A DNA stretch of 32,319 bases from Kordiimonadaceae bacterium (lineage in GTDB: Bacteria > Pseudomonadota > Alphaproteobacteria > Sphingomonadales > Kordiimonadaceae): NCBI GenBank assembly GCA_016765035.1, contig JAESQS010000167.1, forward strand, positions 1 to 32,319, read 5' to 3'. The notes beneath the pieces were generated by a model. That model had not been told where the DNA came from and did not search any database. It saw nothing but the letters and a program-made list of their open reading frames with translations. Made by a program: the position numbers and the translations under genes. Below are positions 492-31,891 of this stretch, in pieces (position 1 is the first letter of the stretch; the number at the start of each line of letters is the position of its first letter).

Positions 492-1085
492 ATGAGCGAA
501 GACATGGTTGATATTGTTGGAACGCCAGAAAATCTTGGTCAAAAAAGAGACAGCCGGCAAAGGCTAGCTCACCTATACGAGCGGTATCAAACCGACATCT
601 GCAAATATGTTGGCAGAACCTTTGGCGATGGCCCGCCTGACCCAGAAGACGTTGCCCAGCAGGTTTTTGTCAAGTTCGTCGAACTGGATGAAAAAACTGA
701 TATTAAAAACCCCCGGGCATATCTTTACCGTATCGCCCATAACCTTATCGCAAACCTCCACCGCAAAGCCTCTACTCGGCGGCGGTATATTGCAGACCAG
801 AAAAATACCGGGCAGGCCCTTGAAAGTGACACCATTCATCCCGAGCGCATTCTCATCGCGCGCGAAAGGCTTGCTTTGTTAGAGCAGGTCATGTGGGCCA
901 TGCCCGTGAAACGCCGACGGATGATCATTCTGAACTGGTTTCAAGACCTGACCTATGCGGAAATTTCAAGGCAGACAGGGGTCTCAAAATCAGTTGTCCG
1001 AAAACATGTACTTAACGGACTGGAAGATTTTCAAAAAGCATTACGAAAGCAGCACGCGCAGGAACAGGGGGAGTTGGACACATGA
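492..1085 (+). CDS. FecI-type ECF RNA polymerase sigma factor (cassette 1)
   Basis: 197 aa ORF with sigma region 2 (DPEDVAQQVFVKFVEL...NPRAYLYRIAHNLIANLHR) and region 4 (MPVKRRRMIILNWFQDLTYAEISRQTGVSKSVVRKHV); ATGA overlap with downstream FecR gene. Confidence 0.93.
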   Translation: MSEDMVDIVGTPENLGQKRDSRQRLAHLYERYQTDICKYVGRTFGDGPPDPEDVAQQVFVKFVELDEKTDIKNPRAYLYRIAHNLIANLHRKASTRRRYIADQKNTGQALESDTIHPERILIARERLALLEQVMWAMPVKRRRMIILNWFQDLTYAEISRQTGVSKSVVRKHVLNGLEDFQKALRKQHAQEQGELDT

Positions 1086-2155
1086 AATTGCATATAGAAA
1101 CCGAAGGCAGGGTTGATAAAGCCGCCCGTGAATGGTTCACCCTCCTCACCTCAACCGCCGCAACAGACACCGACATTGAAGCCTTTGAGCAATGGCGTAA
1201 CCAAGCCAGCGCCCACGCCGAAGCGTATCAACAGATTAATCAGGTCAGAAATGAACTTGGCATCCTCGCCCACACCCCACAAGGGGAGGCTTTGCTCCGC
1301 TCTATTATGCAGGAGCCAGCCACGCCCTCTTTCTGGTCCCGCTGGATTATGGGCGTGAGAGGATGGCCTCACCTGCCCGCATATGGCGCAGCTATGGCAG
1401 CTATGGTGCTTGTTCTTATCGGCTCATTATTGCAACCGCCCGTGCCGGCCCCTGCGGTATACCAAACCACCTCTTCCGAAGTGCGAACAATCGCGTTGGA
1501 CGATGGTAGTTTGGTCACTCTTGGCGCACAGTCCCATGTAGCGGTTCACTACACTCCCAACCGCCGGAACATTCATTTACAAAAGGGGCAAGCCTTTTTT
1601 AATGTGGCCCGAAACCCGGCACGGCCCTTTGTCATAAAAATGCGCGGTGCAGAAGTATCAGTTTTGGGTACAAAGTTTGATGTGCACCTTGGCCGCACAA
1701 AGGCCACTATCGCTGTATTAGAAGGCCGCGTTCGGGTCACACCGCAGCAGGCCTTGCCGAGCATAAAAACTCAGGCAGTAAGCAAGCCCAAAGTCCTAAC
1801 CGCAGGGCAGGTTATTTCGCTGTCTGACAAAGGCTTTACCGCTGAAATCAAAAAAACAAAAACAATACCCGGTGCCTGGCGAGATGGCAGGTTTACCTAT
1901 GTTGATGTACCCCTTTCCCAAATTATTGCCGATGCGGGGCGCTATTATAAAGGCGCGATTATACTGAGAGATAAAAGCCTTGGTACTACCCTGCTAACAA
2001 CCAGCTTTGATGTGGACCAGATTGATGGTTTTTTACGAAATTTACAAGATATGCTGCCAATTAACGTCACCTATACGCCCTCTGGAAAGGTACTTATAAA
2101 GCGAGCGCCAGAATTAGAAAATACTATAATTAAAGATAAAAGGAGCTCATTTTAA
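1082..2155 (+). CDS. FecR-family anti-sigma factor / signal transducer (cassette 1)
   Basis: N-terminal AREWFTLL...FEQWRNQASAHAEAYQQ (DUF4880-like), one TM segment, FecR core (TTSSEVRTIALDDGSLVTLGAQSHVAVHYTPNRRNIHLQKGQAFFNVARNPARPFVI...VLGTKFDV), directly after an ECF sigma. Confidence 0.93.
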   Translation: MKLHIETEGRVDKAAREWFTLLTSTAATDTDIEAFEQWRNQASAHAEAYQQINQVRNELGILAHTPQGEALLRSIMQEPATPSFWSRWIMGVRGWPHLPAYGAAMAAMVLVLIGSLLQPPVPAPAVYQTTSSEVRTIALDDGSLVTLGAQSHVAVHYTPNRRNIHLQKGQAFFNVARNPARPFVIKMRGAEVSVLGTKFDVHLGRTKATIAVLEGRVRVTPQQALPSIKTQAVSKPKVLTAGQVISLSDKGFTAEIKKTKTIPGAWRDGRFTYVDVPLSQIIADAGRYYKGAIILRDKSLGTTLLTTSFDVDQIDGFLRNLQDMLPINVTYTPSGKVLIKRAPELENTIIKDKRSSF

Positions 2156-2251
2156 GGGCTTCTGTGTCTTCTAGGTAGGGCTCGGCATAAGGGCCCTCTA
2201 AAGCAAGCAGCACCTTGCAGGCTGCCTTGCATAACAAGGGGAGAATACACC

Positions 2252-4871
2252 ATGAATAATAAGAGCCAACTGATATCAAAGGGCAACAGGGCCTTAAAAG
2301 AAAGCCGGTTGAAACTATTGGGCGCGGCTTCGCTGCTTGTGCTTGGCGCTGCCTTCACAAATGTTCAAGCGTCGGAAGACCTGCAAAGTAGATTTCTTTT
2401 TGAACTGGAATCTCAACCTCTTGCAGAGGCATTGGTGCGCTATTCCAAAATGACCGATGTTGTGGTCACTGTTCAGGCTGATTTGCTCTGGGGTAAAACA
2501 TCCCCGGCCATCAATGCCAAGATGTCGGCCAAAGAAGCCCTAACCTATCTGTTGCAAAACACACAGCTTGCCGTGATAGAGCGAAACGACGGCAGCATCA
2601 CAATCCTCCCACCTCGGGCATCAGGCTTTCAAAAAATTGGTTTTGCAAGCACTAAAGAATATGAAGCTGGGCTCGTTGTTTATCCCGATGACGAGGAAAT
2701 GGATGACATAGATGGTGACACAGTCTTTGAAGAAATCGTCGTAACAGGCTCACACATCCGAGGCGTACGCTCCGCCTCACCCGTGTTTGTCTATGGCCGC
2801 AAAGATATTGACCTAACAGGTGTCTCCACTGCCCCAATTCATCCAAACCCTCCCGCAAAATTTCGGGGGTGGTGTTACTGAAGTGGGAGCAGGCGTCACC
2901 AATGTGAATAGCGGTACCGGTGTTAACCTGCGAGGCCTTGGCAATGACAGCACCTTGGTGCTCTTGAATGGTCGCCGTTTAGCGCCTGCCGGGGTGGGTA
3001 ATTTTGTTGATATATCGATGATTCCGCTAACGGCAATTGAAAGGATTGAGGTGCTAACAGATGGTGCCTCTGCCATTTATGGCTCAGACGCTGTTGGTGG
3101 TGTGGTGAATTTCCGCCTGCGGACTGATTATGAAGGTTTTGAAACCAGAGTACGTTATGGCAGTGCTACATCAGGAGACCTTGACGATATTCAACTGGGC
3201 CAAACCTTCGGCACAACATGGGATACAGGCCATGTCCTGATCTCCTACGAATACCAAAAGCGGGATAATCTGGATGCTAATGATCGAGCTTTCGCTGAAG
3301 ATCAACCTGACCCTACTGACCTGTTACCACGGCAAAAACGACATAGTGCCTTTCTAACCGCAGGACAAAGTTTGAGTGATACTTTCGATATATTTGCTGA
3401 CATCTTTTATTCCAAACGCAATGCACACTTGCGGGCAGCGGCCCTCGTGAACGCAGAAGATAATCAGGAGACAGAGCAATATGGCGCTTCACTTGGTTTA
3501 GTAGCTACATTGGGAGCCAACTGGCAGGCAGAGCTGGTTGGGTCCTTCAGTCGAAATGACGTTTTATCACATTCATCGGAACTCTTTGACTTTACATCAG
3601 ACCATCTGTCGCTTGAGGGTAAGATAGATGGCTCTCTGTTCACGTTGCCCGGTGGAGATGTGAAGCTTGCAGTGGGTGGGCAGGTTCGCGGCGAATCATT
3701 CAAAGAGGTTAGAGAATCTTTACCTGATCCTGCAATTGACGCTGACCGAACTGTTTACGGGCTTTTTGGCGAAATATTTGTACCACTGGTAGGCAAGGAA
3801 AACCGCATGGCAGGGGTTGAGCGGCTGGAAATAACTGTTGCAGGGCGTTATGAAGATTACAGCGACTTTGGCTCTTCTACAGATAGCAAATTAGGCCTGT
3901 TATGGTCCCCCACTGCAGGAATAAACTTACGTGGCACCTATGGCACTTCCTTCCGGGTACCCCTTTTTAGAGAGTTGTTTGGTACCCAAGGAGGCATTCT
4001 TGTGCCCTTGCCCGACCCGTCTTCCACTAGCGGTAGCACACTATCTTTGGTCGGGGCAGGTGCCAATTCTGGCCTCCAACCGGAAATTGCTACCACCTGG
4101 ACCGCAGGTTTTGATATAGCGCCACCATCACTGCCGGGCCTCACTATTCAGGCGACATATTTTGATATTGATTTCAAAAACAGAATTGCCTCGCCAGGAA
4201 TAGGTTTTGATGCTCTCTTCAATCCTAGATTTGAACCTGTTGTAGACCGTAATCCGGACCAAGCATTATTGGCCTTTTTAGGTTCGAGTCCGGAGTCTTT
4301 TAATTTAACGGGTGGAGTATTTGACTTTACCGATGCAGAGGTTTTTATCGATAATCGATTCCTCAATTTGTCGAGTGTTCAAACGCGCTGACTTGATGTC
4401 TCTGTTACCTATTCGCTCGACAGTGATGTAGGCAGTTTCGGTTTCAACTTGAATAGTACTTATCTGTTTGAACAATCAGACCAGCTACTTCCCACAGACA
4501 GCCCGTTTGACCTTGTTGGCACAGTCAGTAATCCTCCAAATTTAAAACTACGCGGCAGTATCAATTGGGCCTACGACAGTTTTTCGACCAATCTGGCAGT
4601 TAACTATATCGATGGCTTCCGCAACGAGCAAGTTGATCCGGTGGAGGATGTCAGTTCATGGACGACAGTGGATATGACTGTTAGTTATAGAACCGGTGAT
4701 CGCTCAGGCAGTGGATGGCTGGATGGTACGGTATTCTCCGTGAACGCACTGAATCTGTTTGATCGGGATCCACCATTTGCAGCATCTGCCGGGTTTGACC
4801 GGGATTATGACACCGCGAATGCCAGTGTGCTTGGCAGAACGATTGCCTTTCAGATTACCAAGCAATGGTAA
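2252..4871 (+). pseudogene. STN-domain TonB-dependent receptor, disrupted (cassette 1)
   Basis: Three collinear pieces: 2252-2881 (signal peptide, STN domain, EEIVVTGSHIRGVRSASPVFVYG), 2820-4391 (plug and barrel, shifted frame) and 4392-4871 (barrel end, same frame after TGA at 4389-4391, final residue W). Collinear with the intact paralogue at 9442-12150. Confidence 0.88.
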
Positions 4872-5014
4872 CCTGAAACATGTGCGATCTCCAGTCAGCA
4901 AGGCTACACCTATTTCTTCTCTTCTATCCTTGCTGATCTCCTCTTTTGTCAGGGGCCAAAACCATCCATATGGTCTCAAATAAAAGGTGTGATAAAAAAT
5001 CAGGAAACAACAAT

Positions 5015-7174
5015 ATGAAACACTATGCCGTCTGGTTTAAAAAGCCTGTTTTCCAGCTTTTTACCATATTGATCGCTTGTTATATTATCTGGCAAGTCCC
5101 TGTCGCTGAAGCTGGGGACAAGCGTAGTATTACTGCCAAAGATTTGCTGGAAATCCGTGATATTAAAACCATGGCTCTGTCCCCTGATGACAATTATATT
5201 GCCTATCAGGTGGTGCAGGCCGACAAAGACAAAAATGATTATGATATTAATTGGTATGTAGCCACTACTAAAGCAAACGCAAAACCCCTCATGGTGGCTG
5301 ATGGTGGTGAAGCTCATCTATTTACAAATGGTATTGGGTACAAAGTGGGAGAGCTGGAAACAAGTAAAATAGTCTGGGCGCCTGATAGTGAGTGGATCTA
5401 TTATACAAAAATGCAGAATGGTGCATTGCAGATTTGGCGCAGCCATCGCAACCGCTATGGACAAGAACAAGTGACCCATAATGCAGCAGATGTTGAAGGC
5501 CTGAAGTTTTCAACAGATGGATCAAAACTGTTGTTTGCTGTAGGGCGCACACGGGCGGATATTAAGGCAATATTTGAAAAACAGGCCCGGCAAGGCCATT
5601 TATTACAGTATCCCGGTATCTATAGTGTTGAGGAGGGACCATCTTTGCCACCCTGTAGCGATGGACGAGAAAGGTGGGTTCAATATACTATTGAAAAATG
5701 GTCCTGCACCCAGACAGTTTGGGTGGTTGATGCTCAGACAGGTATTGAACATAAAGCCAGCCTTGAGGAAGCCAAGGCATATTTTGCCAAATCTGATCTC
5801 AACACTAGTTTTGGGAAATTGAAAGACCAGACTCGGTCCATGGAAACCCCCTCCCCGGATGGTAGCCACCTTGCCTGGTTTGAAAATAAAGACTCTACCA
5901 TTTATAGAGGGTATAGGCCGCCTATGCGTGTGGTCGTCTCTGACGGAAGCAAAACAGAGCGTTGCTCTACAGATGCCTGCCGTAGTGTGCTGCCTGAAAA
6001 ATTATGGTGGAGCACAGACGGCAAAGAGGTAATATTCTTGATGCGTGATGGCCCGCGTGAGACCCTTAGTTCACTATATGGCTGGACACCGGGTGAGGCA
6101 GATGTGCGCACAATCCGCAGCAGCGATGATGTGCTTGATAATTGTGATATTGTGGGAGATCGCCTGATATGTGGCTACGAGACATGGACATCACCTAAAA
6201 AGATTGTCTCTGTTGACCTGAACAACTGTGAAATCACGACCATTGTGGATATGAACCCTGAGTTTCAAAATTTTAATTTTACCAAAGTTGAGAAAATTCT
6301 TGACGAGGATGCCTATAATAACAAAGCCCATGCCCATCTGGTTTACCCAAAGGATTACACGGAAGGGCGGCGATATCCGCTGGTAATCGTTCAATATCGA
6401 TCCGACGGGTTCCTGAGAGGCGGGATGGGCGATGAGCAACCCATTCATGTTTTCGCGCAACAAGGTTTCGCTGTGCTTAGTTTTGATATGCCGAGACAAG
6501 ATGATAATTACGCGAAAATTGATGATGTAATAGAATTAAACAAGCATGATTATAGGTGGCGCATTATTGATCGTGGGCCTGTGACAGCAATTGACCGCAT
6601 GGTTAAAGTTCTGGGAAAACGTGGCATTATTGATCCCAACCGAGTAGGTATTAGCGGATTAAGTGGTGGTGCAATGACGACCATGTCTGCCCTGTTGGAG
6701 CGAGATTATGCGGCGGCATCAGTGGCAGCAATTAATGGTGCCCCGCCAAGCTTTAGGTTGCCTCCTTCAAGTCTTTTCAGGAAAGTGAGAGATTATACCT
6801 TTGGCGGAACCCCTTTTAGCAAGGTAGGATTTGAAATGCGCGCTAAATACTCATTTGCCATGAATGCTCACAGAATTGATACACCTTTTTTAAGTCAGGT
6901 TTCCGACAGTGAATATTATTTTAACAGACAAAGCCACCATGCGTTAGAGGAGGCAGGTAAGCCGGTGGAAATGATTATTTACCCTGATGAGTATCATGTG
7001 AAATGGCAACCAGCACACCGATATGCGGTCTACACCCGCACTGTCGATTGGTTTAATTTTTGGTTGCGGGGCGTGGAGGACAACAGCGCTGATAAGGTAG
7101 AGCAATATGAGCGTTGGCGTGGCCTGAGGACGGTGCATCAGGCCAACCTGCAAACGCTTGCGGCGGTGCATTAG
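5015..7174 (+). CDS. Secreted S9-family serine peptidase, resembling Atxe2-type lasso peptide isopeptidases
   Basis: N-terminal signal/TM segment (MKHYAVWFKKPVFQLFTILIACYIIWQVPVAEA), beta-propeller-like N-half (ITAKDLLEIRDIKTMALSPDDNYIAYQVVQADKDKNDYDINW), paired Cys motifs, nucleophile elbow GISGLSGG, C-terminal His region PDEYHVKWQPAHRYAVYTRTVDWFNFWLRG. ATG at 5015 chosen over the ORF-track start 4946. Confidence 0.85.
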   Translation: MKHYAVWFKKPVFQLFTILIACYIIWQVPVAEAGDKRSITAKDLLEIRDIKTMALSPDDNYIAYQVVQADKDKNDYDINWYVATTKANAKPLMVADGGEAHLFTNGIGYKVGELETSKIVWAPDSEWIYYTKMQNGALQIWRSHRNRYGQEQVTHNAADVEGLKFSTDGSKLLFAVGRTRADIKAIFEKQARQGHLLQYPGIYSVEEGPSLPPCSDGRERWVQYTIEKWSCTQTVWVVDAQTGIEHKASLEEAKAYFAKSDLNTSFGKLKDQTRSMETPSPDGSHLAWFENKDSTIYRGYRPPMRVVVSDGSKTERCSTDACRSVLPEKLWWSTDGKEVIFLMRDGPRETLSSLYGWTPGEADVRTIRSSDDVLDNCDIVGDRLICGYETWTSPKKIVSVDLNNCEITTIVDMNPEFQNFNFTKVEKILDEDAYNNKAHAHLVYPKDYTEGRRYPLVIVQYRSDGFLRGGMGDEQPIHVFAQQGFAVLSFDMPRQDDNYAKIDDVIELNKHDYRWRIIDRGPVTAIDRMVKVLGKRGIIDPNRVGISGLSGGAMTTMSALLERDYAAASVAAINGAPPSFRLPPSSLFRKVRDYTFGGTPFSKVGFEMRAKYSFAMNAHRIDTPFLSQVSDSEYYFNRQSHHALEEAGKPVEMIIYPDEYHVKWQPAHRYAVYTRTVDWFNFWLRGVEDNSADKVEQYERWRGLRTVHQANLQTLAAVH

Positions 7175-7532
7175 GCAGGCTTGCTACCCAAAAATGGAGC
7201 ATGAAACACCTGTGTCTAAGGATGATTGGCACCCACGTTTCATGCTTCTTCTTATGCCGCGTCTCGCGCTACTTCCCGCCGTTGGGGCCCCTGCGCAAAA
7301 CACAGCTCATTACTATACAACGTATAAAAAAACAAACCGTTCCAAATTTTTTGCACTTTTTTATAGATAAGTATCAATTGTGCCTTCTTGGCCTAATTTA
7401 TGTGTCTAAACCGCTGCACTCCTCAAAAAATTCCGGTAATCGCCTTAGTTTTTCTTGCCAGATATTATTCAGCGAGCATAATGGCGGTGTGGCAACCGGT
7501 GTGGTGGGACAGGCTGGTATTGTGGGGCTGGG

Positions 7533-8177
7533 ATGAAAAAGTGGTTTTTTAAAAATAGGAAAAAGCGCCTCGTAAGTGGCGGCGGTGAGCAGGCGGCCTC
7601 CTTGCTGGTCGAAACATTATATCGGGACCATTTCACGGACCTTTGTAAAAATATCCACATATCTTTTGGGGGTGGCCCGCCAGAGCCAGAAGACATTGTG
7701 CAGGCAGCCTTTACAAAATTTGCCAGCCTTGATCATGCAACATCCATTGAAAAGCCGCGCTCGTTTATTTTCATTATTGCCCGCAATTTGGTGCTCGATT
7801 ATAAACGTCGCCGCAAGATGGACGATGCTTATATTGCAGAGCAAATTGCGCTTGATCATGACTTTAAATTGGAAGGGATCACGCCTGAACGCGTTGTATT
7901 GGCGAAGGACTATCTTAATCAGCTTATTCGCGTTCTTCGTACCTTGCCGAAAAAGCAGCAGGTTATTCTGTCCATGAACCGCCTTGAAGGGAAGTCATTC
8001 AAACAAATCACACAAGAGACAGGCTGGTCTGCCGGGGACATTAGCCGCAACATGAATGCCGGGATGGAGACGTTAATCCGCATCATGGACACAGGCACCC
8101 CCACGGAAATTGATAGTGCTGCGCACACAGAAACAGCAGGCCCCTCTCACAGTCGACAAGTAGATAAAAAGCAATGA
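7533..8177 (+). CDS. FecI-type ECF RNA polymerase sigma factor (cassette 2)
   Basis: 214 aa; PEPEDIVQAAFTKFASLDHATSIEKPRSFIFIIARNLVLDYKRR and LPKKQQVILSMNRLEGKSFKQITQETGWSAGDISRNM; ATGA overlap with FecR. Confidence 0.92.
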   Translation: MKKWFFKNRKKRLVSGGGEQAASLLVETLYRDHFTDLCKNIHISFGGGPPEPEDIVQAAFTKFASLDHATSIEKPRSFIFIIARNLVLDYKRRRKMDDAYIAEQIALDHDFKLEGITPERVVLAKDYLNQLIRVLRTLPKKQQVILSMNRLEGKSFKQITQETGWSAGDISRNMNAGMETLIRIMDTGTPTEIDSAAHTETAGPSHSRQVDKKQ

Positions 8178-9262
8178 GCACGCATAGCAACATGGATCAG
8201 CATATTAAAGAGCAGGCTCGGGAATGGCATGTGATTATGCATTCCGGCAACCTGCCGCAGGAAATGCGCCAAAAATTTGAGGCATGGCTTCATGCAGACA
8301 GAGCCCATAAACAGGCCTACCATGCGTTTGAGCAACTATACCGAGATTTGGACTTTGCCTTGCCACGGGCGGGCATTAATGTTGATGAACTGTTGGGCAG
8401 GCAACAGTCGCCTTTCATGGCGGCCTGCTCTGGCTGGGCAGAAAAGTTAAAGGCATGGCCGGTGCCTGCCGTTGGCACCCTTGCCGCAGGGTTTGTGGCC
8501 GTTGCGCTGGTTTTTGGCGGGCTGCACTTGCGTGATCTATATTGGGGCCCGCAAAGCCACGAAGCACCGCTCCCCCCCTCCACAACATATGCCACAGCGG
8601 TTGCCGAAATCAGCGAAGTCACCCTGGAAGATGGCACTATCATCACCTTGGGGGCGAAATCCAGTTTTGATGCTGTGTTCACCCCCGGCTCACGGCGCGT
8701 CACCCTCGTTAGGGGCCAAGCCTTTTTCGATGTAGCAAAAGACCCAGCCCGGCCCTTTTACGTCACTGTGCAAGATACGCTGGTGCGTGTGGTTGGCACA
8801 AAATTCGATGTTAAAAGCATCCGAGGTGAAGTCCGGGTTTCGGTTTTGGAAGGCGTTGTTGAGGTCATGAAGCCGGGCAAAATTCCCGCAAGCTTCACCG
8901 ATACCGCCCTTATGAATACACCAAAGCACACGCTGACCGCCGGTGAGCAAGTTACAGCACAGATGCGCAAGGCCTTGCCACAGGTGGAAAAGGTTGGCCC
9001 TACAGAGGCAGGCGCATGGCGCAGCGGGCGGCGCTCCTATGAAAATGCCAGCCTTATTGAAATAATTTCTGATTTAAACCGCCACCACAAACGCCAAATA
9101 AATATTGCCTCACAGGATATTGCTGGCCTGCGCACAACAATCACCTTCAATACAGCTGATGTGGCGGCAGTCCTTGAAATGGTGGCGGCAATACACCCCG
9201 TTGAAGTTATTGACGGGCAAAGAGACCAAATTCTATTGCGGCGCAAACACACCCGCAATTAA
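8174..9262 (+). CDS. FecR-family anti-sigma factor / signal transducer (cassette 2)
   Basis: AREWHVIMHSGNLPQEMRQKFEAWLHADRAHKQAYHAFEQ, TM segment, FecR core ISEVTLEDGTIITLGAKSSFDAVFTPGSRRVTLVRGQAFFDVAKDPARPFYVTV...VVGTKFDV. Confidence 0.93.
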   Translation: MSTHSNMDQHIKEQAREWHVIMHSGNLPQEMRQKFEAWLHADRAHKQAYHAFEQLYRDLDFALPRAGINVDELLGRQQSPFMAACSGWAEKLKAWPVPAVGTLAAGFVAVALVFGGLHLRDLYWGPQSHEAPLPPSTTYATAVAEISEVTLEDGTIITLGAKSSFDAVFTPGSRRVTLVRGQAFFDVAKDPARPFYVTVQDTLVRVVGTKFDVKSIRGEVRVSVLEGVVEVMKPGKIPASFTDTALMNTPKHTLTAGEQVTAQMRKALPQVEKVGPTEAGAWRSGRRSYENASLIEIISDLNRHHKRQINIASQDIAGLRTTITFNTADVAAVLEMVAAIHPVEVIDGQRDQILLRRKHTRN

Positions 9263-9441
9263 CGGCAGCGGCCAACGCCCCGCGGGGCGGCCCCCTATAT
9301 GCCACAGCATAAAGCTGGAGAAGTAAATTGGAACGATAACCCGACCCCTGCGTTGTTTAACTAAGATCAAGCTTTTGGTAAGGGCCAACCCACACCAAGC
9401 ATTGATCGCTAAAAAAACGCATAATCGGGAGGACGAATGCA

Positions 9442-12150
9442 ATGAGCCAGTCAGGGATCAGTGGACTTTCATCAAAAAAAGGGCGTGCCCTCAAGCGCGC
9501 GCTTGGCAGTGCCGTATCAATAGTTGCAGTAACACTTGCAAGCAATTGCGCCTTTGCGCAACCAACAGACTTTAATATAAAAGCCCAATCCCTCAGCAAG
9601 GCCTTGCTGGCATTTGGCGAGCAATCCGGCGTTAATGTCGCGGCATCACGCGCGCTGATTGAGGGAAAAACCGCCCCTGCCGTGCGCGGTGAAATGGACC
9701 CCACAAAAGCCCTTAACAAAATCCTGTTAAATTCCGGCCTAAAATCAAAAGAGCTGCGCTCAGGCGCTTATACAATCACTCTTGCCGCCGCCAATGTAAC
9801 AGGCAGAAACGTCGCCCCTCACCGCGCCGCGCAAGCGAGCAAACAGACGCCGCAAAAGGCAAACACCTCTGCCCGCCCCTATGACGAAGAAGCGGAGGAA
9901 GACCCTGAATTAAGGTCCGGGTTTGGCAAGCTATCCGCAGATGAGCTTGATGAGATTGTCATTACGGGGTCACACATCAAAGGGGTCAAATCAGCATCTC
10001 CAGTGTTTGTATTTGGACGTACTGATATTGAACAAACCGGTATATCAACAATACCAGATTTTCTCAGAACATTGCCGCAGGTATTCGGCGGCGGGCAATC
10101 TGAGACGACTGCAGGTTTATCAGGTGCTAACAATGCAGACCAAAATCTCTCTGTCGGATCTGGGATCAACTTAAGGGGCTTGGGGACTGAATCCACTTTG
10201 GTATTACTCAATGGGCACCGGCTTGCTGCCACTGGGGTCGGAGATTTTGTTGATGTTTCATTGTTCCCCTTGACAGCGATAGAAAGGGTAGAAGTGTTGA
10301 TAGATGGGGCATCTGCTCTCTACGGCTCAGATGCAGTCGGGGGTGTCGTTAACTTTGTTCTGCGAAAAGACTATAGCGGGGCAGAAACCCGTGTGCGTTA
10401 TGGTACTGCTACAGATGGTAGTACCGATGATATTCAAATTGGACAAGTTGTTGGGGATAGCTGGGATAGGGGCCACGCGCTCATCTCCTATGAATATCGC
10501 AAGCGGCACCATTTGGATAGTGAAGAGCGTTCCTTTACGAAGGACAGCGCAGATCCAACTTATCTACTCCCTGATCAAGAACGACACAGCCTTTTTTTTA
10601 CAGGCGGTTATGAAGTTTCCGAAGATATAAGTCTTTTTGGAGATGCCTTTTATAGTGAGAGAAAAGGGACCCGTTATAGTTCCGTTTTATCATCGATAAG
10701 CTCCTCGGATAGCACGTCACATCAATATGGCACAAATATTGGAGCTGAGATCGAGATTGGCGAAAATTGGCAGGCCGAAATTTCTGGTACTTATAATAAA
10801 AGCAAAACTTCTAGTGTACTTGAAATATACCTACATCCATTTGGCCCATCAATTTCACCGCTGGTTTCATTTCCCTCACAGCAACGTACAGAAGTTTGGT
10901 CTGTTGATGCTACAACAACTGGAAAATTATTTAGCATTTCGGGAGGTGACATAAAATTAGCGACAGGTGTTCAATATCGCAACGAACACTTTTACACTTT
11001 AAGGGATAGCGTCCCTGAATCTGATTTATCCCGAGATATTTTTGCAGTATTTACCGAGTTAAATATTCCCTTAGTAAGTGAAAATAATCGATTTGACGGC
11101 GTAGAAGCCCTCGAACTCACGCTGGCCGGTAGACTTGAAAGCTATAGTGACTTTGGTACCTCTATAGACCCAAAAATAGGGTTGATCTGGTCTCCCTTGT
11201 CCGGGCTTCAGGCACGAGGTACTTATAGTACGTCCTTTAGAGCGCCAATATTGGAAAACCTTTCTGAATATAGTGTTTCAGCAGTTATGTTTAATCTTCC
11301 AGATCCTGCGTCCCCGACTGGCGAAACATTATCGGTCATAGCACTCGGCAATAATGCTGCACTTAAAGAAGAAAGCGCAAACACTTGGACAGTAGGGTTT
11401 GATATTAAGCCGCCATCCTTACCTGGCTTCAACTTGGGTGTCACCTACTTTAATATTGCTTACAAGGATAGAATTGAAGCGGGGGATGCGTTTTTTGATG
11501 CGTTTCTCGTCCCACGATTTGCACCTTTAATTGATAGAAACCCCGATTTGAATTTCATAGAATTTCTTTTCGAAAGCCCGTTTTCATTCAACGGAACTGC
11601 TTCAGACCCGATAGAAGCGGAAGCTCTGGTGGATAATCGCTTGCGTAACGTTTCTAGGCTCGCTACTAGCGGGTTAGATGTCACAATGAGTTATGCATTC
11701 GATGCCGATATAGGTTTCTTTAATGTCAATATCAACACCACATATTTACTCAAAAGAGAAATTCAGTTGTTTGAAACCGAGGCAGCATTTGGTGTATTAG
11801 ATACTGTAAATAACCCCGCTGACTTAAAGGTTCGTGGTGGCTTATCTTGGGCTTCTGGCAATCTTTCATCGAGCTTATTTGTCAACTATGTCGATGGATA
11901 TCATGACGAGCGCATGGTTCCTGTTGTTGATGTGGATTCTTGGACAACAGTTGATCTACAATTGCGTTATCAGTTTGATGATGACACCAGTAATGGTTTG
12001 CTCACTGGTACGGAACTATCCATCAGTGTACAGAACCTCTTTGACCAAGCGCCACCTTTTGTTTTCAATGTGTCAAATAGGAACTTTGATTCTAACAATG
12101 CAAGCGCCCTTGGTCGCTTTGTTGCCTTTCAACTTATTAAACACTGGTAA
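9442..12150 (+). CDS. STN-domain TonB-dependent receptor, intact (cassette 2)
   Basis: 902 aa; signal peptide, STN domain (FNIKAQSLSKALLAFGEQSGVNVAASRALIEGKTAPAVRGEMDPTKALNKILLNSGL), plug (LDEIVITGSHIKGVKSASPVFVFGRTDIEQTGISTIPDFLRTLPQVFGGG...ALYGSDAVGGVVNFVLR), C-terminal barrel ending in W; gggagg RBS. Confidence 0.95.
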   Translation: MSQSGISGLSSKKGRALKRALGSAVSIVAVTLASNCAFAQPTDFNIKAQSLSKALLAFGEQSGVNVAASRALIEGKTAPAVRGEMDPTKALNKILLNSGLKSKELRSGAYTITLAAANVTGRNVAPHRAAQASKQTPQKANTSARPYDEEAEEDPELRSGFGKLSADELDEIVITGSHIKGVKSASPVFVFGRTDIEQTGISTIPDFLRTLPQVFGGGQSETTAGLSGANNADQNLSVGSGINLRGLGTESTLVLLNGHRLAATGVGDFVDVSLFPLTAIERVEVLIDGASALYGSDAVGGVVNFVLRKDYSGAETRVRYGTATDGSTDDIQIGQVVGDSWDRGHALISYEYRKRHHLDSEERSFTKDSADPTYLLPDQERHSLFFTGGYEVSEDISLFGDAFYSERKGTRYSSVLSSISSSDSTSHQYGTNIGAEIEIGENWQAEISGTYNKSKTSSVLEIYLHPFGPSISPLVSFPSQQRTEVWSVDATTTGKLFSISGGDIKLATGVQYRNEHFYTLRDSVPESDLSRDIFAVFTELNIPLVSENNRFDGVEALELTLAGRLESYSDFGTSIDPKIGLIWSPLSGLQARGTYSTSFRAPILENLSEYSVSAVMFNLPDPASPTGETLSVIALGNNAALKEESANTWTVGFDIKPPSLPGFNLGVTYFNIAYKDRIEAGDAFFDAFLVPRFAPLIDRNPDLNFIEFLFESPFSFNGTASDPIEAEALVDNRLRNVSRLATSGLDVTMSYAFDADIGFFNVNINTTYLLKREIQLFETEAAFGVLDTVNNPADLKVRGGLSWASGNLSSSLFVNYVDGYHDERMVPVVDVDSWTTVDLQLRYQFDDDTSNGLLTGTELSISVQNLFDQAPPFVFNVSNRNFDSNNASALGRFVAFQLIKHW

Positions 12151-12160
12151 CACCCATATC

Positions 12161-12201
12161 AGGCCTTAAAGCCGAAATGTAATTCTTTTGCTTTAAGGCC
12201 T
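12161..12201. other. Stem-loop between TBDR and S9 peptidase (12-bp perfect inverted repeat, 17-nt loop)
   Basis: aggccttaaagc (12161-12172) and its exact reverse complement gctttaaggcct (12190-12201), starting 10 nt after the TBDR stop; no T-tract follows. Confidence 0.8.
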
Positions 12202-12229
12202 ACTTGCTTCCAACCAAAAACTTCCTCCT

Positions 12230-14701
12230 TTGAAAGCTAATATGATGTTCAATTTGGCATTATGCCCTCTAGTATTACCTTGGGTCAAACCAATGTTGAG
12301 CAAGATCGGCACGTACATGCTATTGATCGTAGCGGCAACTATTATACAAACTCATACTCTTGAAGCACAAATTGAAAGCCTGCAAAAGCGTTCGCTTACG
12401 GTACATGATGTTATAGAGATGCGCAGTATTATTGACCCTTTCCATCCTGCAACTATCTATGGACCCGCTAAATTCCAATTCTCGCCTGATTTTCATCATT
12501 TTCTTTTAGTTACACAAACGAGAAATCTTAAAACAGGCTATAATGATGCGGAGCTCTGGCTTTTTCATTCAAAGAAAGTGTTAGAGTTTATAAACAAAAA
12601 AGGCAAACATGCCCTACCGGAGGCAGAAATAGTGGCACGTTTTTCCTCCTCCTCAAATAGGGCGGCTATTCGTCAACTTCAGTGGCTAGCAGATGGGAAT
12701 TCCATTGCCTTCATTGCGGAAAGCCCCGGTAACCTAAGTCAAGTTTTCCAGTTAAATATTTCTTCCGGCGAGCTCATACAACTGACCCAGCATCCTCGAT
12801 CCGTCTTATATTTTTCTCTAAGTGATACGGCCAATACTCTTGTATTTCTCTCCACCCATATCAGTAAAAATCAAGACTGGGAGAACCCTAGTTTTATTGT
12901 CGGAACCCGAACGTTAAGCCAAGTGATGTCGAGGGATCAGCCTTATCCATCCCATATTACCACCGAGTTACAATATTATAGCAAGTCCTTGCACCAAGGT
13001 GCTTCCACGCAGCCCTTGATGCACTCTTTTGTGACCGGTAAAGAGTTTACTGCGTTTCGTTCATATGACATCTGGATATCACCTGATGGTCAAAAAGCGG
13101 CTTTACATGTGCCGGCCACCTTCGAACGTCAAATGGACTGGATTGGCGATTTTCACCCTATATCAAACAGTTCCACCTATAAAAGTATCGCTAATGATTT
13201 TGATGAAAATGTGGAACCAAAAATCGGTTTTTTGTTTTGTCAATTTGCCATTGTCAACTTGGCGGACGGCACGCTGGAGAAACTTATTGATGCCCCCATT
13301 GGGCATATGCTTGGCGGCCTCAATGCCAAGGCAGTATGGCACCCTAATAGTCAGATAGTTTTCCTCTCAAACACCTTTCTGCCTTTAAAGGATGTAGGTG
13401 CTGAAGAAAGAGAAATCCGCAGGCGAGCGCCTGCCATAGCTGCCTACAATCTCGCCACAGCTCAGGTAAAACGCCTAGTCGAAATGGAGGTGCCAGATGG
13501 CGGCACTCAAAGTACCCTTCAAGTTACAGATATAAAATTCGGCACAAATACTAATTTGATCACTAGCTGGTCAACAACGAATGGCGTCGCAGCCCCAGAC
13601 CGGGTATATAGGGCCGTAAGAAAGGATTGGGTAGAAGTTTACAACAATGAAAGGGAACCAATAAGAAATCACAACAGGGAAAACCCGCTTAAACTTTCCA
13701 TAAATGAAAATTTAAACACCCCCCCTAATCTACTTGCCGAAGATGTAGCCACCGGCAATAAAAAGCTGATCACTAATTTGAATCCACAATTCGAGGCTTT
13801 AACATTTGGCAGAATAGAGACTTTTGACTGGATTGGTTTAGAAAAACGCTTAGTGTCAGGGGGTCTCGTCTATCCTACAAATTACAACATCAAAAAACGC
13901 TACCCTTTAGTGATACAGGTCGGGTATTTCTTGCCAGAGCGGTTTTTAATATCTGGCCCTATAACAGGATTGACAACCAGTGCCTATGCTGCTCAAGCCT
14001 TGGCTAATCAAGACATAATGGTTCTACTTGTAAACGACAGCCCTAAATTGGGTAAACATAAAGAAATTTTAGCAACCCGGATTGAAATTGAAGCAGCAAT
14101 CCAAAAGCTGGATCAAATGGCCTTGATTGATACGGACAAAATGGGTTTGGTTGGTTTTAGTCGTACCGGGTTCTTTGTGCAAGATTTAATCACATTTTCT
14201 GAGTATAATTTTACGGCGGCTGTCGTAGCTGATGCATCCAATCTCAGTCGATATTCTCTCTCTGTTTACCATGGTCGCCCACTGGGAATTCAGGATATGG
14301 AAAACCTGATGGGAGCGCGCCCCTTTGGAAATAGTCGTGTAAAGTGGATTCAAAAGGACCCTAATCTACATTTGGATAATATTAAAACAGCGCTCAGGAT
14401 TGAAAGCAACGGCCCTGAAATTCCACTATGGTGGGGTGCTTATACTATGCTTCGGCGTATGAACAAGCCAGTAGAGCTTGTGATATATCCTAGGGGTGAG
14501 CACAATCTTAAAAAGCCCTTTGAACAATTATCCTCACAACAGGGTACCGTGGATTGGTTAGCATTCTGGTTAAAGAATGAAGAAAACCCCGACCGTGCCA
14601 AAGCAGAGCAATATGATCGCTGGCGCAAGATGCTGCCCCAGCAAGCCCTAAGCATATCTGCCGCTGCATTGGCACGTGGCGATGCTATGCGAACACAATA
14701 G
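12230..14701 (+). CDS. Secreted S9-family (prolyl oligopeptidase-type) peptidase (cassette 2)
   Basis: Collinear with the 5015-7174 product; signal peptide-like MLSKIGTYMLLIVAATIIQTHTLEA; LTVHDVIEMRSI; LVGFSRTGFFVQ elbow; VELVIYPRGEHNLKKPFEQLSSQQGTVDWLAFWLKNEENPDRAKAEQYDRWRKM. True start may be ATG 12242 or 12293 rather than TTG 12230. Confidence 0.85.
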   Translation: MKANMMFNLALCPLVLPWVKPMLSKIGTYMLLIVAATIIQTHTLEAQIESLQKRSLTVHDVIEMRSIIDPFHPATIYGPAKFQFSPDFHHFLLVTQTRNLKTGYNDAELWLFHSKKVLEFINKKGKHALPEAEIVARFSSSSNRAAIRQLQWLADGNSIAFIAESPGNLSQVFQLNISSGELIQLTQHPRSVLYFSLSDTANTLVFLSTHISKNQDWENPSFIVGTRTLSQVMSRDQPYPSHITTELQYYSKSLHQGASTQPLMHSFVTGKEFTAFRSYDIWISPDGQKAALHVPATFERQMDWIGDFHPISNSSTYKSIANDFDENVEPKIGFLFCQFAIVNLADGTLEKLIDAPIGHMLGGLNAKAVWHPNSQIVFLSNTFLPLKDVGAEEREIRRRAPAIAAYNLATAQVKRLVEMEVPDGGTQSTLQVTDIKFGTNTNLITSWSTTNGVAAPDRVYRAVRKDWVEVYNNEREPIRNHNRENPLKLSINENLNTPPNLLAEDVATGNKKLITNLNPQFEALTFGRIETFDWIGLEKRLVSGGLVYPTNYNIKKRYPLVIQVGYFLPERFLISGPITGLTTSAYAAQALANQDIMVLLVNDSPKLGKHKEILATRIEIEAAIQKLDQMALIDTDKMGLVGFSRTGFFVQDLITFSEYNFTAAVVADASNLSRYSLSVYHGRPLGIQDMENLMGARPFGNSRVKWIQKDPNLHLDNIKTALRIESNGPEIPLWWGAYTMLRRMNKPVELVIYPRGEHNLKKPFEQLSSQQGTVDWLAFWLKNEENPDRAKAEQYDRWRKMLPQQALSISAAALARGDAMRTQ

Positions 14702-14813: not shown

Positions 14814-15533
14814 CTAGATTGGCGTATATTCATTTGATAAATAATCAGCAGCAGCCTGCCCTTCTGGGTCGCAACCAAAAATTACCCGGTGCCATAATAC
14901 GGCTAGAAACTTCGCCAGGTTTTCTTCGTCCAGGCCGCTGTCGCTTATCAGGTTACGCAGGGTGTCATCTTGCCTAAATGTCAGCCGCGCGACGATATCG
15001 TCGGTCATTGATGCCAGACAGTGGGCTGATATTAAAGTACATGCTTCATGCAGGCTTTCGTTGCTGCGTAAAATCGATTTTGTAACTCGCAAGGCCCAAG
15101 ATGCAGTGCTGCGCTCTACAATGGAACCAAGGCGATATTCTTGATCATCGGCGTTCAATAAGCAGCGAAAGAGCCCGTGGTTTGCATCAGCAAATTTGAT
15201 GAATGTTACATTTGCCTCGGTTAGTAATTCGAACATAGACTGTCCACGCTTCAGCCTGCCGGCGTTAGACATTAAGCTTGAAAACTTTGCAATAACATCT
15301 TCCAAAACTTCCTCGGTTAGTTCTCGCTTGCTTGGAAAATATCTATAAAAAGTGCCTGCGCCAACGTTTGCTTGCTCACATATTGATGTAATATGTAAGT
15401 CTTGGTAGGGCGTGTCGTTCAATAACTCCGCTACAGCTACCTTTAATAGGGCTCTGGTCCGATCGCTTTTTTTGTTAGCAGAGCGCGCATCATTTTTTTC
15501 CTGCAACCATATTGGGTAGCTAAAGTTGTTCAT
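14814..15533 (-). CDS. TetR/AcrR-family transcriptional regulator
   Basis: TRALLKVAVAELLNDTPYQDLHITSICEQANVGAGTFYRYFPSKRELTEEV HTH; overlaps the upstream hydrolase end by 4 nt (15530-15533). Confidence 0.9.
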   Translation of the reverse strand: MNNFSYPIWLQEKNDARSANKKSDRTRALLKVAVAELLNDTPYQDLHITSICEQANVGAGTFYRYFPSKRELTEEVLEDVIAKFSSLMSNAGRLKRGQSMFELLTEANVTFIKFADANHGLFRCLLNADDQEYRLGSIVERSTASWALRVTKSILRSNESLHEACTLISAHCLASMTDDIVARLTFRQDDTLRNLISDSGLDEENLAKFLAVLWHRVIFGCDPEGQAAADYLSNEYTPI

Positions 15534-17785: not shown

Positions 17786-20181
17786 TTAAAAGTTTAACCG
17801 CGCAGTGATCCCATACGTTCGTGGATCATTTGGGAAACCACTCAGGCTACCAGCTTGAGCCACAGAATTAAATATGGACTGAAGGTAATCTGTCTTAGTC
17901 AAGTTTCTGACCCACAAAGAGACTTCTCAACCAGTCGCTTCAACAGAGCGAATGCCAAGGCTTGCATTTACCATTGTTGTTGCCTCCTGCACGGTCAAGT
18001 CAGACAGAGCATCACCAACATTGCGCTCCCCCATATAATAGATCTCACCACGGATAAATCCATTTAGGCTGTCAGTTAATGGCCTGACATAGTCACTGGA
18101 AGCGGATACCGTCCACTTTGGCGCATCAGGCAGCGTTTCTCCGCTTAGGTCACACGGGGGCGCTACACCGGAAGGACACGGCGCATTTACAAACACCTCA
18201 TAAGCGGCATCATTATAGGAAAATGCTAAGGAGGCACTCAGGTTTTCAGTAAGGGCAAAACTAGAGTCAAGCTCAAAGCCTTTCACTGTAATGCTGCCCG
18301 CGTTGCTAAGCTCAAAGCCGATGCCATTAAATACTGATGCTTGGAAGTCCTTTACTTTTTGGTGATATAGCGCAGCATTCATTTGGCCACGTCCTTCCCA
18401 AAAACGCACTTTAGCACCAACCTCAAAGGCAGTGACGTTTTCGGGGAAAAACTCAAATTGATTGTCGTCACTCGCAACATTGTTAGAGGCCCCTCTTGAA
18501 ACGTTAAAGCCCCCTGCTTTATAGCCCACCGAAAAACTGGCGTAGGTATTGAATTGATCACTCCAGCTATGGGATACAATAGCATTGCCTGTCAGCTTAT
18601 CTTCTGAACGGGAGCGATCAAAATCCCGCAGAGGCGAAAATATTTGCAAGCCTGAGAAACCTATAAAGGCACCGCCAAACAAGGTATTTAAATCCAAGGC
18701 GGCAAGTGTATCTTGTACATCAAAGGTACCTGTCGCATCTTTATTCTCTTTGGTGTAACGCAGGCCGCCTGTCAGCGTCGTTTGATCGCTGATGTGGAAA
18801 TCTACTTGGGCAAAGACAGCAAAACTCTCTGATTTAGTATCGAATGCCTCTGAAACCTGCCCAGTCCCTTCGGCAAAAAAGGTGCCTGCTGGCAAGCCTA
18901 GAATAAGCTGCTCAAGAGCATCCAAATTACCGAACCCTTCACAATGGTCCCAAAGCCGGCCAAGAGGTCGAAATACGGCCTTGTATCGGCACCATAAAGT
19001 GACCAGCCAAGGGAATCTAGGCTCTGGTTGGAATAGAAGCCGCCAGCCATCCAATCAACAACCGTGTCCTCTGTTGACGTGAAGCGTACCTCTTGTGTGA
19101 AGATCTGAATAGCGCTTTCCGAGCCATTACGAACAGTTATATCGATATCCGTATAATCGGTGTCAATATCCACCGCAGTTTGAAAATCGCGATATGCTGT
19201 AATCGAGGTTATTTCAAAACCATCTAAATCCACAGTCACTTCTGCAGAAAACCCAAAGTCATCCATTGTGGTATTCAATATGCCATCAAAGCTAACTCTT
19301 CGGTCGAAAGGTGTACTTGGGGCATTTATTGGGCCAATCACAGTGCCACCCAATGCTGCAATTGCACCTTGGGTTGGCCCGTTAAAGACAAAAGGTGCTG
19401 CGCAACAGCGTTCGTCAATCTGAGAATAATCAGCTATCATTCTAACGGATACTGTTTCAGAGGGCTCAAATAACAATTGGCCGCGAAGCGCCCACCTGTC
19501 CTTATCGTTAACCTCGCTTCCATCAAATAGATTAGTAATGAAACCGCTGCGCGAATTAACGTTGCCAGAAAGCCTAAAGGCCACTTTATCGTCAACAATT
19601 GGGCCTGTTACAGTCCCTTTGACAATAACTTGATCGTAGTTTCCGTATGTTGCAGAAACCATGCCTCCTGCATCATATTCGGGTTTTTTCGTTACAAAAG
19701 AGATCACACCCGCAGAGGTATTTTTACCGAATAATGTGCTTTGTGGTCCGCGTAATATTTCTGCGCGTTCTAGGGAAAGAAAATCCCCAATCGCCGTGCC
19801 TGTGCGTGCACGATAGACACCATCCACAAAAATGCCGACTGATGGCTCTATACCGATGTTGAAACTGGATGTACCAAGCCCTCTTATGGCCACAATAACA
19901 TCCCCCGGCGCGGCAGACTGCGTAACATTGAGCGTGGGCGCGAGTGACATTAGACCACGAATATCTGTAATATTCGATTTGCGAATAATGTCGCCTGTAA
20001 TGGCATTAATCGAGATTGGAACGTCTAAGAGTGATTTCGCCCGCTTTTGAGCAGTGACTGTAATCTCTTCCAAAGTAAAACCTTCGGCGTCAGCTCTGTC
20101 TTCAGCAAGCAATGGCTGGCTGGCCATTGCTGCCGCGACTGCCAGCGATGAAATAGATGTGCATAATCTGGTATTGGTCAT
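17786..20181 (-). pseudogene. TonB-dependent receptor, disrupted by frameshift and in-frame TGA
   Basis: ORF 20181-18898 (LEEITVTAQKRAKSLLDVPISINAITGD...SLERAEILRGPQSTLFGKNTSAGVISFVTKKPEYD) continues in another frame as 19054-17927; after the TGA at 17929-17927 the same frame reads EVSLWVRNLTKTDYLQSIFNSVAQAGSLSGFPNDPRTYGITARLNF-stop, a canonical TBDR C-terminus. Confidence 0.88.
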
Positions 20182-29855: not shown

Positions 29856-29901
29856 ACGTCTAAACCTAATTCTGTATCTGAAATTGACACACGAGAATAG
29901 T

Positions 29902-30285
29902 ATGAAACTCGCAAAACATAGCAACAAAGACATAGCTTCCAGAGAGCTCGTGCTGACCAAAGCAGTTTTAAGCGCAAGTGACAAATTGGGCATCAATTCT
30001 ACTACACTTGGAAAAATCATAGGGTTATCTGCTGCAACAATCAGCAGAATGAAAAAAGAGGGATATTCTCTCAAAACTGATAAGAAGGAATATGAATTAG
30101 GCGCAGAGTTTGTTCGATTATACCGAGGCATTGATTCAATCAATGGCGGGGATGATACGGCGAACCAAAGCTGGATCAAGTCAAACAACACGGTCCTTAA
30201 TGGCGCTCCGATTGACCTGATACAGAAAATCAGAGGTCTTGTTCATACGATTGAATATGTGGATACATTTAGAGCTAAAATCTAA
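29902..30285 (+). CDS. MbcA/ParS/Xre-type antitoxin (RES-associated)
   Basis: Small HTH protein (KLGINSTTLGKIIGLSAATISRMKKEG) with C-terminal NTVLNGAPIDLIQKIRGLVHTIEYVDTFRAKI, typical of toxin-binding DUF2384; directly upstream of and overlapping a RES gene. ATG 29902 preferred over TTG 29884. Confidence 0.9.
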   Translation: MKLAKHSNKDIASRELVLTKAVLSASDKLGINSTTLGKIIGLSAATISRMKKEGYSLKTDKKEYELGAEFVRLYRGIDSINGGDDTANQSWIKSNNTVLNGAPIDLIQKIRGLVHTIEYVDTFRAKI

Positions 30286-30991
30286 AATTACAGAATTTAC
30301 AGCACAAGTCTGGCGCATTGTAGAAAGCCAGTCACAGTCATCGACGTTAAAGATAACCGACAGTCTTGACGACCAACAGATACTGGAAAAGCTGCTTGAG
30401 GAAACTAAACCAGTCCTCCCAGAAATTGCAAACGGCTTTCACTATCTAATTTCTACCCCTTTTAGATATAAACCATACCCTCATGGTTCACGCTTCAGAA
30501 AAGCAGGCCAGCCTGAAGGGGCCTATTACGCTTCTCTTTCCCCAGAAACCGCCATAGCGGAAATGGCATTTTACCGGATGCTATTTTATAGCCATTCACC
30601 TGATGCAATATTGCCCGAAAACGGGGCTGAATATACCGCTTTTCAAGTAGGTGTTAAAACACCCTATGCCCTTGACCTTACGGAGGAACCGTTCGTCGCC
30701 ATGCTAGAGCTTTTGCTGAAAGAGGACTATCACGCCTGCCAAGAGTTAGCAGACGCGGCGCGTGCTGCTGGTGTTCAAGCCATCATCAGCCAGTCAGTCC
30801 GCTGCCCAAAGAAAGGCGATAATATCACTGTATTTGATATGAAGGCATTCACCAGCAAAGAACCCAAGAAGACGCAAACATGGCGGCTTCACCCCAGTCG
30901 GGATAAAGTCATCGCCTTACGGGAATTTCCGCGTCTGTCCCTAGAGTATCGAGCAGACAACTTTAACGATCCAAGGATTTCTCAGAAATAA
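30257..30991 (+). CDS. RES-domain toxin (predicted NAD+-targeting)
   Basis: FRYKPYPHGSRFRKAGQPEGAYYASLSPETAIAEMAFYRMLF...TPYALDLTEEPF...AAGVQAIISQSVRCPKKGDNITVFD; overlaps the antitoxin by 29 nt. ATG 30257 preferred. Confidence 0.9.
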   Translation: MWIHLELKSKITEFTAQVWRIVESQSQSSTLKITDSLDDQQILEKLLEETKPVLPEIANGFHYLISTPFRYKPYPHGSRFRKAGQPEGAYYASLSPETAIAEMAFYRMLFYSHSPDAILPENGAEYTAFQVGVKTPYALDLTEEPFVAMLELLLKEDYHACQELADAARAAGVQAIISQSVRCPKKGDNITVFDMKAFTSKEPKKTQTWRLHPSRDKVIALREFPRLSLEYRADNFNDPRISQK

Positions 30992-31113: not shown

Positions 31114-31318
31114 TGCTCGCTTTTTAATTTCGGCGAAAAGGGCATTGGGTGTTAAACTAGCCTGAAAGCAACGCGTATGCTTGTGTTTTAGGGGCTCAAA
31201 AACTTTTTCTTAAAATGGCGTACCGGATTATTCCGGCTCGTTCGTCTACATTAGACAGACAGTATTCCCCCCGGAACTCTTGCTAGGGAACCGAGGGGCA
31301 TCGCCAACCGGAGAAGAC

Positions 31319-31891
31319 ATGCCGCATCGCCATATCGATGATTGGTTTACGGAGGAAGTACTGGCCTTAGAGCCGGTGCTGGTTGGTTTCCTGCGCCGTC
31401 ATTGGCGTGATGAGGCTGACATCCTTGATTTACGGCAGGAAACCTATGCCCGGGTGTATGAGGCTGCGCACAAGCAGCGACCAGTTTATGCCAAGGCTTT
31501 TGTATTTAGGACAGCGCGTAATTTAATTATTGATCGCGCCCGTCGGGCACAGGTTGTCTCCATGGAGACAATAGCGGATTTTGAGAGCGTGCCCGTCATA
31601 GAAGATGAACTGGATGCGGAGGCGCGTTTGTCTTCCCGCCAGGAACTGAAAGCCCTGCAACGAGCGTTGGATTTATTGCCCCCCCGGTGCAGGGAAATTG
31701 TTATCATGCGGAAAATCGAAGGGCACTCTCAACGCCATGTGGCCACAGCGCTTGGCCTTGCCCAAAGCACGGTGGAAAAACAAGTGAGCAAAGGCGTGAG
31801 AAAATTGGCCGACGCGCTGTACGGCGAAGGCGGCACATATGCAAATGATGCAACCCCTCGCGCCCGCGCACAACAGGAACGCAAAAAATGA
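31319..31891 (+). CDS. FecI-type ECF RNA polymerase sigma factor (third pair)
   Basis: FLRRHWRDEADILDLRQETYARVYEAAHKQRPVYAKAFVFRTARNLIIDRARR; LPPRCREIVIMRKIEGHSQRHVATALGLAQSTVEKQVSKGVRKL; ATGA overlap with the next gene. ATG 31319 preferred over 31280. Confidence 0.93.
   Translation: MPHRHIDDWFTEEVLALEPVLVGFLRRHWRDEADILDLRQETYARVYEAAHKQRPVYAKAFVFRTARNLIIDRARRAQVVSMETIADFESVPVIEDELDAEARLSSRQELKALQRALDLLPPRCREIVIMRKIEGHSQRHVATALGLAQSTVEKQVSKGVRKLADALYGEGGTYANDATPRARAQQERKK

Follow-up and report, generated by a model that had tools for sequence, protein, structure and literature searches.

Two tandem receptor-peptidase cassettes in a Kordiimonadaceae-related genome as probable detached consumer halves of lasso peptide clusters

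Why would a bacterium carry two consecutive sets of regulator, receptor and peptidase genes with no genes alongside them for making the peptide that they appear suited to take up? The question is raised by a stretch of 32,319 nucleotides (the window), which is the entire contig C86 (JAESQS010000167.1) of a Kordiimonadaceae-related metagenome-assembled genome (MAG; GCA_016765035.1; 3.36 Mb, 360 contigs, 76% complete); C, G and L numbers are our handles for contigs, genomes and loci, respectively. A sequence-only reading had described two cassettes here, at 492–7174 and 7533–14701, and had proposed that they import and linearise peptides, possibly lasso peptides, made by other bacteria. We propose that the "consumer half" of a proteobacterial lasso cluster, that is, its sensing, import and linearisation genes, is present here twice in detached form, and put the probability of this at roughly 0.6.

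Both cassettes lie on the + strand. The first consists of a FecI-like extracytoplasmic function (ECF) sigma factor (492–1085; Pfam Sigma70_r2 and r4_2; TIGR02937, 88 bits), a FecR-like anti-sigma factor (1082–2155; PF04773, 81.9 bits; DUF4880), an STN-type TonB-dependent receptor (TBDR1, 2252–4871), interrupted in the assembly, and peptidase 1 (5015–7174, with a possible alternative start at 4946), which has an N-terminal hydrophobic signal. The second comprises another FecI-like ECF sigma factor (7533–8177; Sigma70_r4_2 and r2), a FecR-like anti-sigma factor (8174–9262; PF04773, 77.8 bits), an intact STN-type receptor (TBDR2, 9442–12150; Plug 67.7 and barrel 118.5 bits) and peptidase 2 (12230–14701). 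In both, an S9 gene stands beside a receptor and a sigma/anti-sigma pair. The STN domain scored 28.5 bits in TBDR2, over the cut-off of 28.4, and 26.6 bits in TBDR1, slightly under it. A motif shared by the promoters of the receptor genes was sought upstream of them and none was found. The collinear FecI-FecR-TBDR-S9 order was as originally described; the exception is TBDR1, which is not a single open frame. It changes frame at about 2820–2881 (near 2830), its Plug and beta-barrel matches lying in the second frame, and has a TGA at 4389–4391. Since the receptor of the lasso cluster found elsewhere in this MAG and two other receptors (one in the window, one on C247) are likewise split, a true pseudogene appears no more likely than sequence error.

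Peptidase 1 is the firmest part of the case. Its product had been said to have the general layout of an Atxe2-type isopeptidase, and the profile search bore this out, with 600.6 bits against NF033523 (Atxe2 family lasso peptide isopeptidase; curated cut-off 400). The only solved structures matching it were AtxE2 (5TXC/5TXE, E=2e-90) and SpI-IsoP of the sphingopyxin I cluster (5JRK/5JRL), a cluster-linked enzyme of the same S9 type that matches less well (69.5 bits with peptidase 1 and 30.1 with peptidase 2). With AtxE2 it shares the family profile, an N-terminal propeller-type region, an alpha/beta hydrolase and an intact, aligned triad of Ser573 (6662–6664), Asp654 (6905–6907) and His684 (6995–6997). 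We are confident in assigning peptidase 1 to the Atxe2-family isopeptidases by family membership, and hydrolysis of an isopeptide bond is its predicted activity. An ordinary cassette for scavenging oligopeptides, with a dipeptidyl peptidase 4 (DPP4) or prolyl oligopeptidase (POP) and no lasso link, could draw on the S9 fold being common to dipeptidyl peptidases, but peptidase 1 exceeds the lasso isopeptidase cut-off by 200 bits and has lasso isopeptidases as its sole solved sequence relatives. This explanation is disfavoured for cassette 1 and scarcely credible overall. Plain DPP4/POP identity is ruled out for peptidase 1 by these profile and structure matches.

Peptidase 2 is a divergent lasso-cluster S9 protein. 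It reached only 138 bits against NF033523, short of the cut-off, and matched no Pfam model at E<=0.001, including no S9 model; the two peptidases were alignable over only about 300 residues, with 27% identity, and are thus not equal copies. In complete lasso clusters of Eilatimonas milleporae (NZ_REFR01000012, Kordiimonadaceae; G020) and G079, the place of the isopeptidase is taken by the closest relatives of peptidase 2 (35–37% identity); together with these two and G091, peptidase 2 forms a clade with support of 99/94, which we term the P2 type. The Eilatimonas cassette has the order FecI, FecR, TBDR, S9 seen in the window, followed by lasso C and B in the opposite orientation and three precursor-like open reading frames (ORFs) past B. 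In G079 the order is ATP-binding cassette (ABC) transporter, two precursor ORFs, B and C, with the S9 and receptor genes on the opposite strand. The S9 genes of these two genomes are thus convergent with lasso C-B and precursors, whereas peptidase 2 is convergent with a TetR-type regulator (14814–15533, - strand; PF00440), located where lasso C is found in a normal cluster. The predicted P2-cluster cores, for example GPLQGFEIDAFGANKRL following LGKVSEVTM, look like ordinary lasso cores. Because the relatives adjoin lasso B, C and precursors with such cores, the P2 type probably fills the isopeptidase slot, although the window copy is not so placed. The idea that cassette 2 is also lasso-linked therefore gained support, its nearest relatives standing beside a lasso cyclase, a B protein and precursors in two genomes.

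How such an enzyme would work is suggested by the alignment. The column of the AtxE2 triad acid, Asp or Glu in Atxe2-type enzymes, holds Gly, Glu, Ile and Gly among the four P2-clade members, with Gly728 at this position in peptidase 2. Three residues upstream, a Glu within an LRxE motif (Glu725, 14402–14404) is invariant in all four and also present in a distant G062 protein. We propose Ser644 (14159–14161), Glu725 and His758 (14501–14503) as the candidate triad of peptidase 2, with the acid apparently displaced along the same strand to the conserved Glu. Three-row alignments gave poor structure models of both peptidases (predicted local distance difference test scores of 42 and 50); a Foldseek search with the low-confidence peptidase 2 model returned S9 folds, AtxE2 among them, which supports the S9 fold only.

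Cassette 2 might instead be a retargeted receptor-S9 system for another modified peptide, its role in lasso isopeptide hydrolysis having been lost. The missing canonical acid and the score under the family cut-off would fit this, as would farther relatives of peptidase 2 in G228 and G162, which sit in sigma/anti-sigma/TBDR cassettes with no lasso genes nearby and make an altered substrate possible for P2-type enzymes. Against retargeting, the nearest clade includes two members within complete lasso clusters, and we consider it improbable. Distant P2-like S9 genes behind FecI-FecR-TBDR, again with no lasso genes nearby, were observed at L107, L108, L116 and L117, three of them in G162. A profile search of genome contigs with the P2 alignment matched Eilatimonas alone. 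G042 contains a remnant of a P2-type gene, a C-terminal fragment continuing an acetyltransferase-like ORF (L025:1018–1812), and a standard lasso cluster elsewhere in the genome.

The lack of a biosynthetic cluster, also part of the sequence-only reading, holds for the window and fails for the genome. With three B and three C proteins of lasso clusters and one ABC (D) protein as tblastn queries, the best E in the window was 0.14, a scan for precursor leader motifs gave only two chance-like matches, and no GntR gene was seen in the window. Neither lasso B, C nor a precursor adjoins the cassettes within it, the left flank being limited to the 491 bases 5' of the first FecI gene. These contain the beginning of a divergent LysR-type regulator (N-terminal part, 1–218, - strand, by translation), which lies outside the module, the contig edge forming the left boundary; a lasso cluster directly to the left is ruled out for that flank only. 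The single Transglut_core3 gene and single lasso-type cyclase of the MAG are both on C91, where the B protein scores 63.1 bits, over the lasso B2 cut-off of 33. The 3' terminal 64 bases of C91 are identical to the end of C247, a contig with two precursor-like ORFs (LGKVSVETK and LGKVSAETK) and a TBDR gene with an Atxe2-type gene following it. Joined, the two contigs give the order D-B-C-precursors, followed by the isopeptidase (E) and TBDR on the opposite strand, the same as in the same-genus genome G018. A further Atxe2-type gene lies behind a TBDR on the short contig C76. No end overlap was found that would join C86 to C91, C247 or C76.

Two observations concern such clusters and their surroundings. 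A trio of LuxR-type regulator (autoinducer-binding in C247), cytochrome P450 and TBDR genes adjoins lasso receptor/isopeptidase loci in three genomes, which belong to two families (L058:5622–10178, L103:14282–18661 and L105:1192–5599), with 45–59% identity for the P450 and 63–77% for the TBDR. In addition, cores of the precursors predicted in this genus and G073 apparently begin with Val/Ile/Leu-Lys and have an acid at position 8, the usual residue at position 1 being Gly, Ala, Ser or Cys (L058, - strand, 15736 and 15923; L062:10221–10539; L111:8651–8740).

The trees connect the cassettes to lasso clusters of two kinds. The sister of peptidase 1 is the C247 enzyme (support 99/96, 62% identity), and that of TBDR1 is the receptor of the same lasso cluster (100/99); TBDR2 falls with the receptors from lasso clusters of the P2 type (93/89). 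Since the receptor and peptidase trees agree, each receptor-enzyme pair appears to have travelled together. From these sister relations, the simplest view of cassette 1 is that it duplicates the consumer half of the resident cluster, and cassette 2 would be derived from a different lasso cluster type.

The same kinship invites the explanation that the extra cassettes re-import and linearise lasso peptides of the genome itself, from the two C247 precursors and perhaps more that remain unassembled. The resident cluster has two precursor-like ORFs, multiple precursors per cluster are usual in these clusters, and the sisters of peptidase 1 and TBDR1 belong to it. However, that cluster already has a TBDR and an isopeptidase of its own, cassette 2 is of a different receptor and enzyme type, and genomes that have neither lasso B nor C still keep orphan cassettes. 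We regard self-supply as rather unlikely.

To estimate how often such modules stand alone, we collected 55 genes over the NF033523 cut-off in 301 Sphingomonadales genomes, with a readable context for 53. About five of the 53 had no B and C genes in the neighbourhood: peptidase 1 of the window and those in G068, G265, G286 (contig 11) and G299 (contig 8, a truncated gene). The count was made by lasso B gene positions and local tblastn, tallied from printed positions, and the gene on contig 13 of G218 was scored as linked, its B and C genes lying about 10 kb off. G068 (2 contigs, 100% complete), in which the module adjoins a phage-type integrase, and G265 (1 contig, 99%) carry a TBDR-isopeptidase cassette and, genome-wide, no lasso B; the cyclase profile gave only general asparagine-synthase-like matches there. 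G286 and G299 each have one cluster elsewhere. In G091, a 97% complete draft with a P2-type gene, no lasso B or C was found. Across the class, 385 genomes were searched and yielded one isopeptidase outside the present MAG. At all seven plasmid-borne isopeptidase loci inspected, the isopeptidase was convergent with the cyclase and accompanied by an annotated B (six of the seven) or a benenodin-family precursor; most had a GntR gene and an annotated precursor. As these were all cluster-linked, the window stands out as a real exception, and orphan modules appear to be a real minority form. The literature search found no papers on orphan lasso isopeptidases, which is weak evidence of absence.

Orphans of this sort could also be decaying remains of lasso clusters that have lost biosynthesis. 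The frameshift and stop in TBDR1, the truncated orphan in G299 and the P2 fragment fused to another ORF in G042 would all be expected of relics. Yet TBDR1 is the only one of the eight cassette genes that is not open (the two peptidases and the two sigma/anti-sigma pairs all are), tblastn revealed no traces of B or C in the window, and the frame breaks in other receptors of this MAG, that of the resident lasso cluster included, suggest an assembly or sequencing error. Decay is, in our view, quite improbable.

Other unusual arrangements were seen among the linked loci. An ABC transporter (D) occurs together with an isopeptidase in five lasso clusters or cluster parts (L057, L062, L065, L103 and L113); a 2022 review lists rubrinodin as the sole case of this combination (PMC9266682). 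At L066:6553–17919, two tandem isopeptidases lie opposite two C-B pairs, with at least four nearly identical precursors.

Among known systems, the window most resembles the AtxE2 module of the astexin clusters of Asticcacaulis excentricus, in which isopeptidase, TBDR, FecR and FecI are grouped. It differs in having no adjoining lasso A, B, C or GntR gene, in the tandem repetition of the module and in the lack of the canonical acid in peptidase 2. FecA-type transport and signalling receptors share the STN domain and the order of FecR and FecI; the receptors of the window, in contrast, are linked to isopeptidases and not to siderophore genes.

The cassettes resemble the rest in base composition (46–48% G+C), and a recent foreign origin was rejected on this ground. 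The remainder of the window includes an additional TBDR with a frame change (17927–20181), such split receptors recurring in this MAG, an Xre/ParS-type antitoxin followed by a RES-domain toxin (29884–30991), and, at 31280–32319, a third ECF sigma gene with the beginning of what may be a FecR-like gene behind it (weak DUF4880 match), truncated where the contig ends.

If the cassettes are indeed consumer halves, a threaded lasso peptide would bind the STN-type receptor, whose STN domain would signal via FecR, releasing the FecI sigma factor and turning on the receptor and peptidase genes. Driven by TonB energy, the lasso peptide would enter the periplasm, and there the exported S9 enzyme would linearise it by hydrolysing the isopeptide bond. 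Cassette 1 would supply the standard Atxe2-type enzyme and cassette 2 the divergent type with its apparently moved triad acid; each may be induced by its own ligand. What the sequence shows is the identity of the modules, a window with no biosynthesis genes, a separate lasso cluster and the recurrence of orphan modules, and from these we infer the import, induction, substrate and benefit.

Several points weigh against the consumer-half proposal: peptidase 1, as sister of the resident cluster's enzyme, is also compatible with additional service to peptides that the genome itself makes; peptidase 2 does not have its triad acid at the AtxE2 position; TBDR1 is interrupted; and at 76% completeness additional lasso clusters could be absent from the assembly. 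In its favour, isopeptidases open only threaded lasso peptides and, in tests, only those of the cognate cluster, with the loop shape as the chief recognition element (PMC9266682). This narrow recognition, together with the receptor and isopeptidase that the resident cluster already has, makes it most likely that the extra cassettes deal with additional lasso peptides. That these are lasso peptides of other bacteria is plausible; the complete genomes that have the module but lack lasso genes speak for such foreign use in at least some species, and scavenging would be a good hypothesis for the window, indirectly supported by those genomes (G068, G265).

The purpose of isopeptidase-type lasso peptides has been called enigmatic, and release of bound cargo has been proposed (PMC9266682). 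We tentatively suggest, at somewhat less than even odds, that lasso peptides from isopeptidase-type clusters are shared goods and that some bacteria keep only the receptor-isopeptidase half for foreign ones, as with foreign siderophores, cassette 2 being an example of another isopeptidase type whose catalytic acid has been relocated. P2-type enzymes also offer a natural test of the triad arrangement in lasso isopeptidases. If import-and-linearise modules act in non-producers, lasso peptides would be used between cells or species, for example as cargo carriers or signals.

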